Both the position numbers and the translations under genes were made by a program. The notes under the pieces were generated by a model. The model ran no database searches, was not told the origin of the DNA, and saw only the letters and a list, made by a program, of their open reading frames with translations. Positions 5,468-23,101 of a stretch of DNA of 46,442 bases are shown in pieces. The DNA comes from Microcaldota archaeon (GTDB lineage Archaea > Micrarchaeota > Micrarchaeia > Norongarragalinales > Norongarragalinaceae), in NCBI GenBank assembly GCA_013360305.1, contig JABWCK010000002.1, forward strand, positions 1 through 46,442, read 5' to 3'. Position 1 is the first letter of the stretch, and the number at the start of each line of letters is the position of its first letter.

Positions 5468-6598
5468 GTGAAAAAATTATTTTTCGTGTTAACCGCTTTA
5501 TTCTTGCTAGGCTGCACTATTCCGCAGGAAGTTGAAGACGCTATTCCTACCGTTATAATAACTCCTTTCCCTACTAGCGCTCCAACTCCTGTTCCTGACA
5601 TTCGCGTAGCAGAAAAACAAGCCATTGAATTCGAAGAACCTTTAATAGTGAAGGAGAAGGACGGCAAGCAATTCATTGTTTCTGACTCTGAGTTGTCTTA
5701 CTCTCAATCTCCTGACTTGATTTCTTCAATTGATTTTCCTGAATTCAATTCTACTCTTGAAAGAAACTTAAAGATTAGTGGTTCGGAAATGGTTGTCGGC
5801 GTTTTTTACAACGGAGAAGCTAAAGCGTATCCTGTTAGAATATTAAACTGGCATGAAGTAGTGAACGATAATTTTAGGGGGGAGAAAATAGTCGTAGTTT
5901 ATTCTCCTTTGACTTTCGCCGCAGCAGCATTCAAGAGAGCGTCACTGGATTTTGGAGTGAGTGGAAAGTTTTACTTGAATACTCCTTTGCTTTATGACCG
6001 CCAAACTCAATCTTTATGGCATTCTTGGACTGGATTCGCAATTCAAGGACAATACTCTGGAGACTCTCTTGAAAGTATTCCCGTATTCGTTGGTTCTTTC
6101 GGGGAATGGAATGCTACTCACCCGGATACTAAAGTATTAGACGCTCCGCGCGGAACTAGAGCCAAGCCTTACAATACGTACCCTTATGGCAACTATAATT
6201 CAAGTGAAAGATTGTTGTTTCCGTCTTTAAGCATTGACCAACGCTTGCGTGCAAAAGAACCAGTATTGGGCGTCGGGTTGAATGGTTATTATAAGGCGTA
6301 CAAGATTTCAACAATGCCTAACGCGTTGAATGATGAACTAGCTGGAACTAACTTAGTTTTATTAAAGAATCCAGTCAATAACGAAACTAGATTGTTTGAT
6401 AGGCGGGATTACTTGTTTTTCGCTAACGAGACGGGGTTGTTTGATTCTCAAACGTTCAGTCAATGGAATTTTGATGGTAGTATTAATTCAACGCGCAGAA
6501 GCAATTTAAGAAGCGCTAAACTCGACGAAGTTCCATCAATTAGGCTGTACTGGTTTGCTTGGAGTCAATTCCACGCTAAAACTGGATTAGAACGCTAA
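5468..6598 (+). CDS. DUF3179-like lipoprotein
   Basis: Lipobox FLLGC; AYPVRILNWHEVVNDNFRGEKIVVVYSP...FGVSGKFYLNTPLLYDRQTQSLWHSWTGFAI resembles DUF3179; GTG start. Confidence 0.8.
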   Translation: MKKLFFVLTALFLLGCTIPQEVEDAIPTVIITPFPTSAPTPVPDIRVAEKQAIEFEEPLIVKEKDGKQFIVSDSELSYSQSPDLISSIDFPEFNSTLERNLKISGSEMVVGVFYNGEAKAYPVRILNWHEVVNDNFRGEKIVVVYSPLTFAAAAFKRASLDFGVSGKFYLNTPLLYDRQTQSLWHSWTGFAIQGQYSGDSLESIPVFVGSFGEWNATHPDTKVLDAPRGTRAKPYNTYPYGNYNSSERLLFPSLSIDQRLRAKEPVLGVGLNGYYKAYKISTMPNALNDELAGTNLVLLKNPVNNETRLFDRRDYLFFANETGLFDSQTFSQWNFDGSINSTRRSNLRSAKLDEVPSIRLYWFAWSQFHAKTGLER

Positions 6599-13279: not shown

Positions 13280-13915
13280 TTAAAGCTTTTCAGGAAAAGC
13301 CGTATTACCCAACTCCAAAAAACCAGGCTTGGAGTATTTAGTGTTTACTAATTCTCCACCAATTACTTTTCCTCTGAGTAAAGATACTTTAACTCCGTGT
13401 CTAATATTTTTTTCATCAACTAATTCAGCATCGTGTTTTTGTTCTGAATAGTATTCAGTAAAATTAGTTCCTGAAGCTAATAACGTAACGCCTGCTAGTG
13501 CGCGCAGCGCGTTTTTCAAAAAGCGTCGCCTAGTTATTGGTTCTTGGCTTGACAATGCAGCGCTACTGCCTGCTCCGGTTGCTAGTAGCAAGCTAGTCAG
13601 CAATTTTTGGTTAAACCAAGCTTTCCTGCGAGTTTTAGGTATTGATTCTAGCCTGCTTAATTCTTCTGATTTTATTTTTATTATTGGAGTCCCTTTTCTT
13701 TTGTATTGTTCTACCAAGTGCTTAGTAACCGGGTTGTTTTCAGTATTTTCGTGTTCTAATACGAACAACGCGTCTATTTCTGGGAGTTTAGGAGTACTGG
13801 CAGTAGTTGGTTGTGTTCCTAACGCATCAAGCGACTCGTTTTGCATTGCTGGAGTGATTATAGTTATTGTTTTTCCTTGAATTGTTTTGCGTTCAGTAAC
13901 AAAAGTATTAGCCAT
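13280..13915 (-). CDS. Hypothetical protein with two hydrophobic segments and an internal Tat-like motif
   Basis: KLLTSLLLATGAGSSAALSSQEPITRRRFLKNALRALAGVTLLASG; 8-nt overlap with fni. Confidence 0.55.
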   Translation of the reverse strand: MANTFVTERKTIQGKTITIITPAMQNESLDALGTQPTTASTPKLPEIDALFVLEHENTENNPVTKHLVEQYKRKGTPIIKIKSEELSRLESIPKTRRKAWFNQKLLTSLLLATGAGSSAALSSQEPITRRRFLKNALRALAGVTLLASGTNFTEYYSEQKHDAELVDEKNIRHGVKVSLLRGKVIGGELVNTKYSKPGFLELGNTAFPEKL

Positions 13916-14918
13916 TTTCTAACATCTTGGCTTTCTTTAGTTGCGTTAAGTTCTTGCTTCTAGTCAAAAACATTGCTATCTGTAATCCTTTCTTGAATGA
14001 CTGGATTTCTTCACGAATTGCTTTCACTCCGCCCTTGTTTTGAGCTTGAATGAATGGCTTAGCTACTCCGCAAAGAGAAGCACCGAATCGAATTGCTTTC
14101 GCGCAATCTAAACCATTCCTTAACCCGCCTGACGCGATTAAGGGTAGTGAAGTTGATGCCGAGCATTGTTGTAATGCGGTCAACGTTGGCACTCCAAAGT
14201 CCCAGAACAAGTTTCCTTCCTTTGCGCCTTTCCTGTAAATTTCAATCGCAGTCCAACTAGTTCCTCCTGCTCCGGCTACATCTACGGCGCTAACTCCTGC
14301 TTCTTGAAGCTCTCTTGCGACGAATCCATTAATTCCCGCGCCTACTTCTTTAGCGATAATCGGAAACTTTGCATAATCGCATAGTTTTGAAATTGCTTTT
14401 AAGACTCCAACCCAGTTTCTATCTCCTTCTGGTTGTACGGTTTCTTGCAACGCATTAATGTGAATAAAACAACCGTTGGCTTCAATTTTTTCTACAGCGT
14501 CACAAACTTGCTTTGGAGTGTATTCCAACAATTGAGCCGCGCCGAAGTTTCCATACAAAACTGCTTTTGGAGCGTGTTTTCGCACCATAAACGTTTTTGC
14601 TAATTCCGAATGCTTGAGCATTGGCCTCATGCTACCAAAACCCATTGGTATTCCTTCTGCTTCTGCAGCAATAGCTAGTTCTTGGTTGATTTTTTCTCCT
14701 TCGGCGTAACCGCCGGTCATTGAAGAAATTAATAACGGTGCTTGGAAAGAGTGCTTTAAGAAACTAGTTTTCAAAGAAACTTCATTGAAGTTCATTTCAG
14801 GCAAAGCGTAATACAAGAAGTCAATATCGTTAAAGCCCGTTTTCTTGTTTTTGAAATCAATGTCCTTATTCAAAACAATATCAACGTGTTGCGCCTTACG
14901 ATCAGCAATCTTAGTCAT
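13908..14918 (-). CDS. fni: Type II isopentenyl-diphosphate delta-isomerase
   Basis: MTGGYAEGEKINQELAIAAEAEGIPMGFGSMR; FPIIAKEVGAGI; ASGGLRNGLDCAKAIRFGA. Confidence 0.93.
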   Translation of the reverse strand: MTKIADRKAQHVDIVLNKDIDFKNKKTGFNDIDFLYYALPEMNFNEVSLKTSFLKHSFQAPLLISSMTGGYAEGEKINQELAIAAEAEGIPMGFGSMRPMLKHSELAKTFMVRKHAPKAVLYGNFGAAQLLEYTPKQVCDAVEKIEANGCFIHINALQETVQPEGDRNWVGVLKAISKLCDYAKFPIIAKEVGAGINGFVARELQEAGVSAVDVAGAGGTSWTAIEIYRKGAKEGNLFWDFGVPTLTALQQCSASTSLPLIASGGLRNGLDCAKAIRFGASLCGVAKPFIQAQNKGGVKAIREEIQSFKKGLQIAMFLTRSKNLTQLKKAKMLENG

Positions 14919-18697: not shown

Positions 18698-19666
18698 ATG
18701 GAAATAACTGCTTCTGCTCCTACTAAAATCATTATTACTGGTGAGCATGCAGTCGTTCATGGTTGTACGGGATTAGCAGTCCCTTTAGATTCTAGAAACA
18801 GCGTTACGATAAAAACTATTTCTTCTCGTAAAGTGGTTTTGCCTCCAAATTCAAAAAAACAATTAAGAGATGCTTTTAACTCAGTTTTTTCTTTAGTTAA
18901 TCCTTCAAGTGGCGTAAAAGTTACTTTGGGTTACAGCGGAATGCCTAAGGGTACGGGTAATAGTGCTAGTATTGGAGCAGCTTTTGCTTTAGCTTTGTAT
19001 CATTTAGATGGACGTACTCCCAGCAAACAAGAACTTTTTGATGCAACACAAGAATTTGAAAAAGTTTTCCATGTAGCTCCTTCGGGAATAGATGCTCGTA
19101 CTGTTTTAGGAAATTCTTCCTTAACAATGAAAAAACAATGGAAGAAAGGCCAAGTTGTTTTTAATTTTAAAGAAAAAAAACTAGTGCTACCACGCTCTAT
19201 AGTGTTACTTATTGTAGAAAGCAAGTTGAAAGAAACTCCATTAACTACAGGAGAATTAGTAACTTTATTCTCCAAAACGTTAGTAGGCAAGCATCCTAAT
19301 GACGTAAATCCTGTTGAGCGAAAGTTTATCGTTGATTTGTTCGAGCCAATAACTAAAGATATTATTGGAGAATTAAAACAAAACGGAAACTCTGCAAAAC
19401 TAGGCAAGTTATTTTTAGAAAATCATTTTCTACTACAAAAAAGTGGAGTAATACCTGATAGTATGGATCAAACAATTCGCGATTTAGTTGCTAGTGGTTG
19501 TTTAGGTGCTAAAGGCACAGGCGCATGTGGCCCCGGTGGCGTAGTGATTGCGTTATCTAAAGAAAAAGAAGTAGAAAAAATAAAGAAAAAATTAGGCTCT
19601 AAATATAATATCAAAGTTGCTTCATTTGCTTCTGAAGGACCAAGAATAGAAAAAGTAGTAAAATAA
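18698..19666 (+). CDS. mvk: Mevalonate kinase (divergent)
   Basis: ASAPTKIIITGEHAVVHG; GMPKGTGNSASIGAAFALAL; SGIDARTVLGN; KGTGACGPGGVVIAL. Confidence 0.85.
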   Translation: MEITASAPTKIIITGEHAVVHGCTGLAVPLDSRNSVTIKTISSRKVVLPPNSKKQLRDAFNSVFSLVNPSSGVKVTLGYSGMPKGTGNSASIGAAFALALYHLDGRTPSKQELFDATQEFEKVFHVAPSGIDARTVLGNSSLTMKKQWKKGQVVFNFKEKKLVLPRSIVLLIVESKLKETPLTTGELVTLFSKTLVGKHPNDVNPVERKFIVDLFEPITKDIIGELKQNGNSAKLGKLFLENHFLLQKSGVIPDSMDQTIRDLVASGCLGAKGTGACGPGGVVIALSKEKEVEKIKKKLGSKYNIKVASFASEGPRIEKVVK

Positions 19667-19669
19667 TTA
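19626..19669 (+). repeat. 44-bp direct repeat, copy A (3' end of mvk)
   Basis: 42/44 identical to 21792-21835; first 32 nt exact. Confidence 0.95.
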
Positions 19670-19685
19670 GTGGGCAATGGCGAGA

Positions 19686-20225
19686 TCAGAACTTTTTTCG
19701 ACCACTTTGCCCTTTTAGTTCTGAAATTATTTTCTTAACATCATAATCTGCTTCTTTTTCTAGTTTTTTAAATTGTTTTGAAGCAATCAAGTTTTCCTCA
19801 ACTCTGATCCCAACACTCTTTCCCGTTTCCTTGTCTTTAATTGCGTAAACCGCGAAATTCTCGTCCATAATCATGCTCTTAAAATTAGAGTTATTTATAA
19901 AACCCATTCTAAAGTTGGGTAGTGATAAGTATTTTTCCCATAGTTGAAGTGTTTTTTCTAAAGTTTTTTTATCCATTGTTAAAAGCATTTGTTTAGTTTC
20001 GGGCAAAGACGATAAATAAACTGTTTTTAGTCCTGAAAATATTTTGTTCATTGCTTTGTGAGTATATTTTTTTCTCCATAGTCCTTTTTGTTCTTGAAAA
20101 ATTAACAAAGTAGGTGTTTTTGCTGCTACATAAAATTCATTTGCGTTTGCAACCATTCGAGTCGCAGCTTTGTAGTACACGTCAGGACTAATTTCTTGTT
20201 GTAAATTAGAATAGGTAGTCTTCAT
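19686..20225 (-). CDS. TrmB-like sensor-domain protein lacking an HTH
   Basis: NEFYVAAKTPTLLIFQEQKGLWRKKYTHKAMNKI resembles the C-terminal half of ORF 20872-21726 (STIRLASKTPAIILSKETELTPLRKTYVENLL). Confidence 0.5.
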   Translation of the reverse strand: MKTTYSNLQQEISPDVYYKAATRMVANANEFYVAAKTPTLLIFQEQKGLWRKKYTHKAMNKIFSGLKTVYLSSLPETKQMLLTMDKKTLEKTLQLWEKYLSLPNFRMGFINNSNFKSMIMDENFAVYAIKDKETGKSVGIRVEENLIASKQFKKLEKEADYDVKKIISELKGQSGRKKF

Positions 20226-20280
20226 TATACTTCATATCTTTTTTTATACAAAATGATTTCTGTTTATTTTTAATATTTTT

Positions 20281-20847
20281 TTATTTATTTAAAGTTTTAA
20301 GATAATGCATTAGAATGACTCTGGCAGCAGGCGTAAATTTTTCTTTCTTTAATAATTCGGATATTTCTTGTGTTGAATAATGAGTCGTTCCTTTTGGGTT
20401 TACTTCTTTTTCATTTATTTTAAAACTACCTTCGTATTCGGCAATAAGTGGAAGGTATAGTCTGTGGGGGTTGTCACTGTCAATTTCTCTTGGTATTTTC
20501 CACAAAACTTTTAGTTTTTTAATTGATTGTCTTTCGATTCCTAATTCCTCTATTGCTTCTCTTATTGCAGCACCCTTGATGAATTCTGATACTGCAAAAG
20601 GGCCTTTAGTCGCCTGTAATCCCCCGGACGCACTTGTTGTATAAAAATTAGGATAATCATTTTTACTTGCTGCTCTTTGTTGAAGTAATATTCTACCTTC
20701 TCCGTCTTTTAGAAGGAGCATGACGAATACGTGTGGTTGCTTGGTGGTGTTTGCTTCTTTTCTAGTTATTTTTCTCCCAGTAATGTATGGTCCAAAAAAG
20801 GGTAAATTAATTGTCTTATGATATTTGTTTACTAGTTCCTCCGGCAT
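20281..20847 (-). CDS. Nudix hydrolase-family protein, IDI1-like layout
   Basis: Nudix box GPFAVSEFIKGAAIREAIEELGI matches Gx5Ex7REUxEExGU; RILLQQRAASKNDYPNFYTTSASGG. Confidence 0.88.
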   Translation of the reverse strand: MPEELVNKYHKTINLPFFGPYITGRKITRKEANTTKQPHVFVMLLLKDGEGRILLQQRAASKNDYPNFYTTSASGGLQATKGPFAVSEFIKGAAIREAIEELGIERQSIKKLKVLWKIPREIDSDNPHRLYLPLIAEYEGSFKINEKEVNPKGTTHYSTQEISELLKKEKFTPAARVILMHYLKTLNK

Positions 20848-20871
20848 ATATTATAGTTTAATTCTAGTTCT

Positions 20872-21726
20872 TTAAATTCTGTTTGCTGGGTTTAATTCGT
20901 TTTCAATCTCGTCTATGAATTCTTTGCACTCGTTAGCATTTACGAAAATATTATCGTAAATATTTGATATTTCTTTAGTATCTAGACTACTCATATGAAG
21001 AATTCCTACTAAATCCGTGTGGCTCGGTGAAGCAAAACCTATCATACAATCTTTGCTTCCGATAACTAGTGTCGTTACTGTGTGTAACGGTGCGTGTCTT
21101 AATCGCAACCCCGTTATTTTTGAAAGTTTTTTTAGGGTGTTTATTGCTTTCTTATCTTTCTCGGCTAGTATTTTTTTTCTTGTCAAATCGGTAGAAAATA
21201 AATACTTTGCTTTAAGAACACCTTTTGTAGTGAGTTTCAACAGGTTTTCTACATATGTCTTCCGAAGTGGAGTAAGTTCTGTTTCTTTTGACAAGATTAT
21301 TGCAGGCGTTTTACTGGCGAGTCTAATAGTTGATTCTTTGAGAACAAGTTGATTTAATATTAGATAAAAATCATCAGGGCTGGTATAGATTCTTATGTTT
21401 GCTGTCTTCGTATTACGCGTGGTTAGTCCTTTTTTAGTCTCGGAGTAAGCGTTTTTAGTAATTCTTCCAAACCTTTCGATTTCTTTAAGCCAATTTAAGT
21501 TCAATTCGTATTTGTTATTTTTAGTTGTTGAGATTATACTTAAGTCTACTAGTTGTTTTACTACTTTGTGGACGCCTTGATAACTTATATTGTAGTTTAG
21601 ATCGTTCTTAATTTTGTTATAAACCTGTTTTGTAGAAAGAGGCCATTCTGCACTAAGAACAGTTACGACTAATTGTTTACAATCACTTTCCTTTGTTCCA
21701 AACAACGATGGTTTTTTAGAATTCAT
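20872..21726 (-). CDS. Winged-helix transcriptional regulator with TrmB-like sensor domain
   Basis: N-terminal VTVLSAEWPLSTKQVYNKIKNDLNYNISYQGVHKVVKQLVDLSII wHTH. Confidence 0.75.
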   Translation of the reverse strand: MNSKKPSLFGTKESDCKQLVVTVLSAEWPLSTKQVYNKIKNDLNYNISYQGVHKVVKQLVDLSIISTTKNNKYELNLNWLKEIERFGRITKNAYSETKKGLTTRNTKTANIRIYTSPDDFYLILNQLVLKESTIRLASKTPAIILSKETELTPLRKTYVENLLKLTTKGVLKAKYLFSTDLTRKKILAEKDKKAINTLKKLSKITGLRLRHAPLHTVTTLVIGSKDCMIGFASPSHTDLVGILHMSSLDTKEISNIYDNIFVNANECKEFIDEIENELNPANRI

Positions 21727-21791
21727 TTAGGTAACTACTAGCGTTTTAAAGTTATAAAAAATATTTGTTGTGTTGTAAAAACAATTTTTTC

Positions 21792-21835
21792 TTGCTTCTG
21801 AAGGACCAAGAATAGAAAAAGTACAAAAATAATTA
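21792..21835 (+). repeat. 44-bp direct repeat, copy B (orphan fragment of mvk 3' end, ASEGPRIEKVQK*)
   Basis: Matches 19626-19669; last 3 nt are the hmgA stop codon on the minus strand. Confidence 0.95.
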
Positions 21836-23101
21836 TTTCATCAATTCTTTTGCTCGTTCGAGTTTGACGTTTTTTTCTTCGTACATTTTTTCAGCGATTT
21901 TTCTTATTTGTTCTCCTTTTGCTCCAGCCATTACTGCAATATTGTTAGCATGCAAACGCATGTGGCCCCGGTTGATTCCTTCTGTTGACAAAGCACGAAC
22001 TGCAGCAAAGTTTTGAGCTAGTCCAACACAAGCAATTATTTCCGCCAATTCCTTAGCAGTCTTTACTCCTAGTAATTTAAGACTCATTTGTGCGAGGGGG
22101 TGTGTTTTTGTTGCTCCGCCGACTATTCCCAACGCCAAAGGCAACTCAATCTCCCCAACCAAATCCCCATTCTTATTCTTGTAATATTTAGTCAAAGGCT
22201 TGTATCTACCTGTTAGCGAAGCGAAAGCGTGTGCTCCTGCTTCGATAGCGCGAAAATCGTTTCCTGTAGCTATAACTACTGCGTCTATTCCGTTCATTAT
22301 TCCCTTGTTGTGAGTCACCGCTCTATATGGATCGGCTTCAGCGAAAGCATAACAATCCAAAAACCGCTCAATAATTTCTTCTCCAGTAAATTCTCCTTTA
22401 AACGATTTTTCCAAATTGTCCTTAGTCCATACTGCCTTAGCTCTAGCTAACCGCTTTACAGCTAGGTTTGATAGAATGCGTAATCGAGCTTCTCCTCCGG
22501 TTAATTCTTCTAACAAGGGAGCGAGTTTTTCGCACATTGAGTTTACTGTGTTGGCTCCCATTGCGTCTTGAACGTTTACTTCCAAGTAAACGCAAACGCA
22601 TTCGCCGCGAGTGGTTTGAATTATTTTTGCTTCAAAGTTTTTTGCCCCGCCGCCTTGCTTGAAAATAGTCGAAGAAGGATCATTTATAGAGTCAATTAGT
22701 TTTTTTTTACTAGCTTCAATCGCTTTTATTGCTTTCTTAGCGTCTGGAACGTTGACTAGTTGCACTTGCCCAATCATTATTGGTTCATCAGTTGACGCAG
22801 TGAATCCCTGAGGCAGAGTGATTTCGGCTGCTTTGCTTGCGGCTGCAACAACCGATGGTTCTTCTATGACGAAAGGAATCAATCTTTCGATTCCGTTGAT
22901 TTTGAAGTTAGTTGCAATGCCTAGTGGTAACTGAAAGGTTCCAATCGCGTTTTCGATCATGTTGTTAGCGGTTTCGAAGCTCAACGCGTTTTCTAACAAA
23001 GTAAATTCTTCTTTGGTAAGGTGAGTGTTTTTTTTCAAGAAGTCGATTTTTTCTTGCAAGGATTTTTTATGGAATTCGTTCCATTTTATTTGTGAAGTCA
23101 T
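21833..23101 (-). CDS. hmgA: HMG-CoA reductase, class II-like
   Basis: VIEEPSVVAAASKAAE; DAMGANTVNSMCE; TGGEARLRILSNLA; THNKGIMNGIDAVVIATGNDFRAIEAGAHAFAS; HMRLHANNIA. Confidence 0.95.
   Translation of the reverse strand: MTSQIKWNEFHKKSLQEKIDFLKKNTHLTKEEFTLLENALSFETANNMIENAIGTFQLPLGIATNFKINGIERLIPFVIEEPSVVAAASKAAEITLPQGFTASTDEPIMIGQVQLVNVPDAKKAIKAIEASKKKLIDSINDPSSTIFKQGGGAKNFEAKIIQTTRGECVCVYLEVNVQDAMGANTVNSMCEKLAPLLEELTGGEARLRILSNLAVKRLARAKAVWTKDNLEKSFKGEFTGEEIIERFLDCYAFAEADPYRAVTHNKGIMNGIDAVVIATGNDFRAIEAGAHAFASLTGRYKPLTKYYKNKNGDLVGEIELPLALGIVGGATKTHPLAQMSLKLLGVKTAKELAEIIACVGLAQNFAAVRALSTEGINRGHMRLHANNIAVMAGAKGEQIRKIAEKMYEEKNVKLERAKELMK

Follow-up and report, generated by a model that had tools for sequence, protein, structure and literature searches.

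A duplicated mevalonate kinase gene end flanks a regulator-Nudix block in a Micrarchaeota genome, with orphan gene ends in related archaea

The mvk/hmgA locus and its duplicated gene end

The window, meaning here the whole stretch of DNA analysed (46,442 nt), is contig C44 of an 821-kb assembly in 55 contigs, 89% complete. The genome (G000) is the sole representative of its genus and comparisons were made with order-mates. The window carries a mevalonate cluster encoding a type 2 IPP isomerase (13908-14918), a second GHMP kinase that is presumably the phosphomevalonate kinase, mevalonate decarboxylase (MVD), mevalonate kinase (mvk), HMG-CoA reductase (hmgA), an HMG-CoA synthase-like protein, a thiolase and a polyprenyl synthetase. 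The mvk gene (18698..19666, forward strand) is intact and encodes 322 aa with GHMP kinase Pfam domains, its match to TIGR00549 (E=5e-33) lying under the family cut-off. The hmgA gene (21833..23101, reverse strand; 422 aa) was assigned by PF00368 (E=3e-110).

The last 13 codons of mvk lie inside a 44-nt repeat present in two directly oriented copies. Copy A (19626..19669, forward strand) forms the functional mvk 3' end, TAA plus TTA, and copy B (21792..21835, forward strand) is an orphan mvk 3' end without an attached mvk, adjoining the hmgA stop codon. Direct comparison bore out the positions, the 42/44 identity and the exact match over the first 32 nt reported in the first-pass annotation, with the two copies differing at two adjacent bases only (GT vs CA). 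The description of copy B as a stranded mvk C-terminus running into the hmgA stop was likewise upheld by its sequence and translation: it reads ASEGPRIEKVQK followed by a stop, which corresponds to the 12 C-terminal residues of mevalonate kinase apart from a single change (VVK to VQK), and its TAA stands immediately next to the TTA of the hmgA stop, the hexamer TAATTA being present in copy A too. This is the sole exact direct repeat of at least 20 nt in the window, and no third copy of its 32-mer core was detected elsewhere in the 821-kb assembly with up to three mismatches allowed. From the two sequences it follows that recombination between copies A and B would restore convergent mvk and hmgA genes with adjacent stops.

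Between the copies lies a block of 2122 nt (19670..21791) with a GC content of 0.32, compared with 0.39 for the window. Its first 46 nt (19670..19715) are predicted to fold into a hairpin of -20.3 kcal/mol that overlaps the end of the ORF at 19686-20225 and is probably a bidirectional terminator. That ORF (19686..20225, reverse strand) encodes REG1 (179 aa), similar to the C-terminal domain of REG2, described below (30% identity across 90 aa), and devoid of the winged helix; judged from this similarity, REG1 resembles a sensor-domain protein without HTH, that is, a sensor-only paralogue of REG2. The quality of its structure model was too low to use. The second ORF (20281..20847, reverse strand; 188 aa) encodes a Nudix protein with a canonical Nudix box, G-x5-E-x7-REAIEELGI, a motif read from the sequence. 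Its assignment as a type 1 IPP isomerase was rejected (TIGR02150, 31 bits vs a cut-off of 105.8), the order yielded distant Nudix matches but no orthologue, and no match was found in GTDB contigs.

The third ORF (20872..21726, reverse strand; 284 aa) encodes REG2, a winged-helix protein with a TrmB/PLD-like domain. The N-terminal winged helix and the TrmB-type C-terminal domain are both visible in its model, which is of moderate confidence (pLDDT 61), and the best PDB match was TrmBL2 (E=4e-8), with a TM of only 0.31-0.34. REG2 had no significant family match in Pfam, and a match to a Tc3-like HTH (E=0.16) was under its cut-off. Full-length REG2 homologues with 36% identity are located directly upstream of MVD in two genomes of a different family, f6 (G015 and G028), on which account the block cargo appears linked to the pathway and a REG2-type protein is suggested to be a mevalonate-pathway regulator. 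This arrangement, with a TrmB-like homologue of REG2 just upstream of MVD, was recorded at L172:6954-8839 and L171:3-1820. The cargo, namely a TrmB-like regulator, its sensor-only paralogue and a Nudix hydrolase, is thus probably metabolic or regulatory and not selfish machinery.

No transposase, integrase, recombinase, endonuclease or tRNA was found in the block, the cargo proteins having been scanned against Pfam, NCBIfam and PADLOC, with an additional fold search for REG2. The block holds no multicopy sequence, is single-copy in the assembly, has no terminal inverted repeats at its ends in the inverted-repeat list, and its proteins had no matches in viral contigs. A contig joining mvk to hmgA without the block was sought in the assembly and none was found. 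The suggestion that the block might be a reversible or recently mobile cassette was not supported by these results, there being no mobility gene, no second genomic copy and no empty-site contig; the proposed search for the cassette at other loci returned it once in the genome.

The junction in order-mates and orphan gene ends elsewhere

In most order-mates in which mvk and hmgA were found together the two genes are convergent, and they are co-directional in three (G011, G015 and G028). The convergent stops are 1 nt apart in G023 (L051) and about 10 nt apart in G002 (L052, stops at 6469 and 6480), but the mvk of the latter is a non-orthologous, weakly similar gene. In seven order-mates (G001, G006, G008, G016, G018, G020 and G021) the interval is occupied by 0.8-3.9 kb of unrelated DNA, with hydrogenase/Nuo-like ORFs, GNAT-like proteins, a LAGLIDADG protein, a dehydrogenase with an aminotransferase-like enzyme, and others, several of these names having been read off translations. 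The mvk/hmgA junction is thus an insertion hotspot, and the window block would be one among several independent fillings. The comparison with relatives proposed at the outset therefore agreed with one part of the first-pass annotation, that a block had landed between convergent mvk and hmgA genes: near-abutting convergent stops in two order-mates together with unrelated fillings in seven make the landing of the block with a copy of the mvk tail the simplest history. The other part, a reversible or recently mobile cassette, was not sustained.

The same architecture, a working gene end followed by an insert and an orphan gene end, occurs in relatives at other genes in the order. When intact genes were scanned for orphaned C-terminal tails in their vicinity, 7 hits were returned among 563 ORFs in DPANN hmgR loci and 12 among 484 ORFs in random stretches of G000, G020 and G006, hits that include some paralogues, low-complexity tails and weak matches; none was returned for the 570 ORFs of non-DPANN hmgR control loci. 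A stricter scan that included 5' ends returned 13 hits among 273 ORFs in G006, 3 among 341 in G008, 2 among 157 in G020 and 1 among 292 in G000 (the window case), compared with 1 among 570 in the controls, and its hits likewise include motif-sharing paralogues. A general count of nucleotide direct repeats could not separate these genomes from the controls, which had more of them, and gene-end-specific scans alone were used for this reason.

Two cases resemble the window block in site or layout. In G020, an orphan hmgA tail (VQVDRAKELLEEMRK, followed by a stop) adjoins the mvk stop and is separated from hmgA by a LAGLIDADG_3 ORF (L036:6277-7334). In G006, a 2.1-kb cassette of the AbiEi/AbiEii-like type IV toxin-antitoxin type lies at a convergent junction between dUTPase and a 73-nt exact orphan copy of the dUTPase 3' end (L211:3924-6169); of all the cases it resembles the window block most closely. 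The same genome also has an orphan HMG-CoA synthase tail.

Other observations were made along with these scans. Orphan HMG-CoA synthase tails 3' of the intact gene were seen in two members of one family, at L043:3546-3584 (a weak match) and L034:1250-1288. At L097:1486-2642, the last 89 nt of a polyprenyl synthetase C-terminal ORF are repeated (88/89) past a 184-aa membrane-protein-like ORF. Neighbouring ORFs in three genomes share an LPNMVGGC C-terminal motif (L343:6242-7835; L364:7226-8825; L200:1048-2199, as LPDMVGGC/LPSMVGGC), which is possibly a sorting or modification signal. A repeat array in another contig of the window genome (C4, L183) was discarded as a run of tandem paralogues, and a 108-nt exact repeat in L219 (9278-9385 and 14435-14542) was set aside as a possible scaffolding artefact bordering a run of N.

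R1 mini-elements and working versus relic tails

The spacer of an orphan-tail case in G010 (L041) proved to be a dispersed repeat, here termed R1. R1 is a short, multicopy, non-coding element of about 60 nt with two hairpins, as represented in a covariance model of 17 copies, and five base pairs changed on both sides, a number of compensatory changes reached in 0 of 500 shuffles. Copies were found in four genomes of one archaeal family (28 in G008, 26 in G006, 13 in G001 and 10 in G010; L225, L251-L319), with single weak matches in each of G004, G009 and G022, and R1 was detected in no further genome of a class-wide sample of 246. A single match in viral contigs was rejected as a chance hit in a GC-rich contig with flanks that were not duplicated. 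R1 had no matches in G000, and the best covariance-model match in the window (E=0.28) lies outside the block. Because the block contains neither a recombinase, nor an endonuclease, nor an R1 copy, its mobility is unproven.

Of the 77 R1 copies tested, 59 have flanks that share a direct repeat of 16-95 nt exceeding the 99th percentile of a cross-copy null, under which 1% would be expected, and these repeats nearly always start within a few nucleotides of the 3' end of the element. The duplicated sequences are usually gene ends, including both the 3' and the 5' ends of protein genes as well as tRNA gene ends, with copies at tRNA genes exemplified by L313, L318, L310 and L293. The geometry is not universal, as R1 is opposite in orientation to its gene at L238/L301. 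Stop-codon readthrough into the relic was rejected because the spacings (165, 98, 120, 179, 110, 135, 112 and 119 nt) share no reading frame. MITE/REP-like dispersed repeats may be compared with R1, which is similarly short, structured, multicopy and non-coding, but differs in that its flanks are duplications of 16-95 nt, often gene ends, and not short fixed target-site duplications.

At nine loci where working and relic 3' ends could be aligned at the stop codon, changed codons were synonymous in 39 cases and non-synonymous in 3, while random substitution averages 19% synonymous; these loci are a selected set, eight of them with R1 or an R1-like element and the HMG-CoA synthase case with a different spacer, and synonymous differences are favoured to some degree because the search that located them compared the tails at the protein level. 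An automatic count over all R1 loci (65 synonymous vs 56) was set aside, since several of the ORFs picked look like spurious antisense frames. Such synonymous divergence is what would be expected if the two tails stem from different alleles or species and were both selected while functional. The two G010 copies share 68 identical nt but are recoded over their final 31 nt; across these 31 nt the relic and the working tail match the G008 orthologue at 27 vs 23 positions and the G001 orthologue at 24 vs 24. For the EF-2 tails of G008, the corresponding matches over 60 nt are 49 vs 45 to the G010 orthologue and 43 vs 44 to that of G001. These comparisons lean, weakly, towards the displaced relic being the native tail at both loci. 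The window tails, with their two adjacent base differences, are without the recoding seen in the tails of relatives.

Competing explanations and known systems

We consider it probable that the block was inserted between the convergent mvk and hmgA genes by a homing-like or integrase-like event, after which the last 13 mvk codons were present twice. Invading DNA would have entered at the gene end, the mvk tail may have served as shared homology, and the working tail would have arrived with the insert, leaving the old tail displaced and stranded as a relic beside hmgA; the enzyme responsible could have acted in trans or could since have been lost. Counting against this reading are the absence of a recombinase, endonuclease or R1 copy from the block, the missing recoding between the window tails, and the slight preference of the relics at the two R1 loci for one orthologue but not for the other. 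That the window block belongs to the same process as the cases in relatives is unproven: it is grouped with them on shared architecture, clade and site, which leaves room for a one-off duplication. A broader proposal, which we advance tentatively, is that the order hosts undescribed gene-end-replacing mobile DNA, ranging from the ~60-nt R1 to multi-gene cassettes and targeting protein-gene 3' and 5' ends and tRNA ends, in which a synonymous end is swapped in and the native end orphaned.

The duplicated stretch coincides exactly with the coding 3' end of mvk, stop codon included, and G020, G006, G008, G010 and G001 show the same geometry. Both observations speak against a one-off illegitimate insertion, in which a local operon was picked up during repair of a staggered break or by template switching, with the 44-nt duplication as a by-product and no mobile system involved; this account is unlikely, although it is a serious contender, as it agrees with the near identity of the copies, the absence of a mobility gene and of listed terminal inverted repeats, and the single copy of the block. 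Integrase islands are characterised by direct repeats together with a restored target gene and a displaced fragment (PMC4383910), and several R1 copies in relatives are at tRNA genes, as would suit an integrase-type integrative element with the mvk tail as attL/attR and an integrase gene since lost. Such an element is nevertheless improbable, no integrase or remnant having been recognised in the 2.1-kb block and R1 being at many unrelated targets, unlike a site-specific integrase. It is very improbable that an isoprenoid regulatory operon (REG2-Nudix-REG1) moved in during an ancient reshuffle of the cluster, with copy B as the leftover of a partial mvk duplication: the position of REG2 homologues directly upstream of MVD in family f6 would fit, but copy B still matches at 42/44 nt, useless reading frame included, which argues for a recent event, and the order yielded no Nudix orthologue. 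A transposon with target-site duplication was rejected for lack of a transposase and of terminal inverted repeats at the block, as was a diversity-generating retroelement, the GT vs CA differences including a G/C site (and so not being adenine-only) and the cargo proteins having no RT domain.

Entry by gene-end replacement, the reading preferred here, would account for the arrival of cargo in very compact genomes without gene breakage, and for chimeric gene ends. We found no description of the pattern in archaea in the open-access literature searched, which is not proof of its absence. Integrase islands in tRNA and tmRNA genes have endpoints marked by a regenerated target and a displaced fragment (PMC4383910), and the window block likewise has direct repeats that restore the target gene, but Islander needs an integrase gene inside and none is among the three cargo proteins. 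In Torulaspora and Lachancea, WHO elements encode endonucleases and have one target gene, FBA1, at their home locus, where homing is reported to swap in the donor 3' end, the old end becoming a fragment (PMC7282813). The proposed likeness lies in an insert bordered on one side by a complete gene whose 3' end has been replaced and on the other by the displaced 3' fragment, clusters of fragments building up through repeated events; in the window the displaced fragment is present as copy B, whereas the scans of the block found no encoded endonuclease or other recognisable nuclease, and many different genes are hit in the archaeal cases. Fungal mitochondrial mORFs (Allomyces atp6; Glomus atp6, atp9, cox2 and nad3) leave a duplicated C-terminus on either side of the insert, keep the native tail in displaced form and show largely synonymous differences (PMC3630166), a trace like that proposed here. 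Their closest match is the hmgA case of G020 with its LAGLIDADG ORF, but mORFs are organellar and encode nucleases, while the window cassette consists of regulators and a Nudix protein. Gene-end replacement is already an established process in the WHO elements of yeasts and the mORFs of fungal mitochondria, and the same signature is found in DPANN archaea at essential genes (mvk, hmgA, EF-2, dUTPase and tRNAs) with mostly enzyme-less inserts. This raises the testable question of which activity cuts or recombines there, and the recurrent insertions with orphan gene ends point to a little-noticed route of DNA invasion into compact archaeal genomes.
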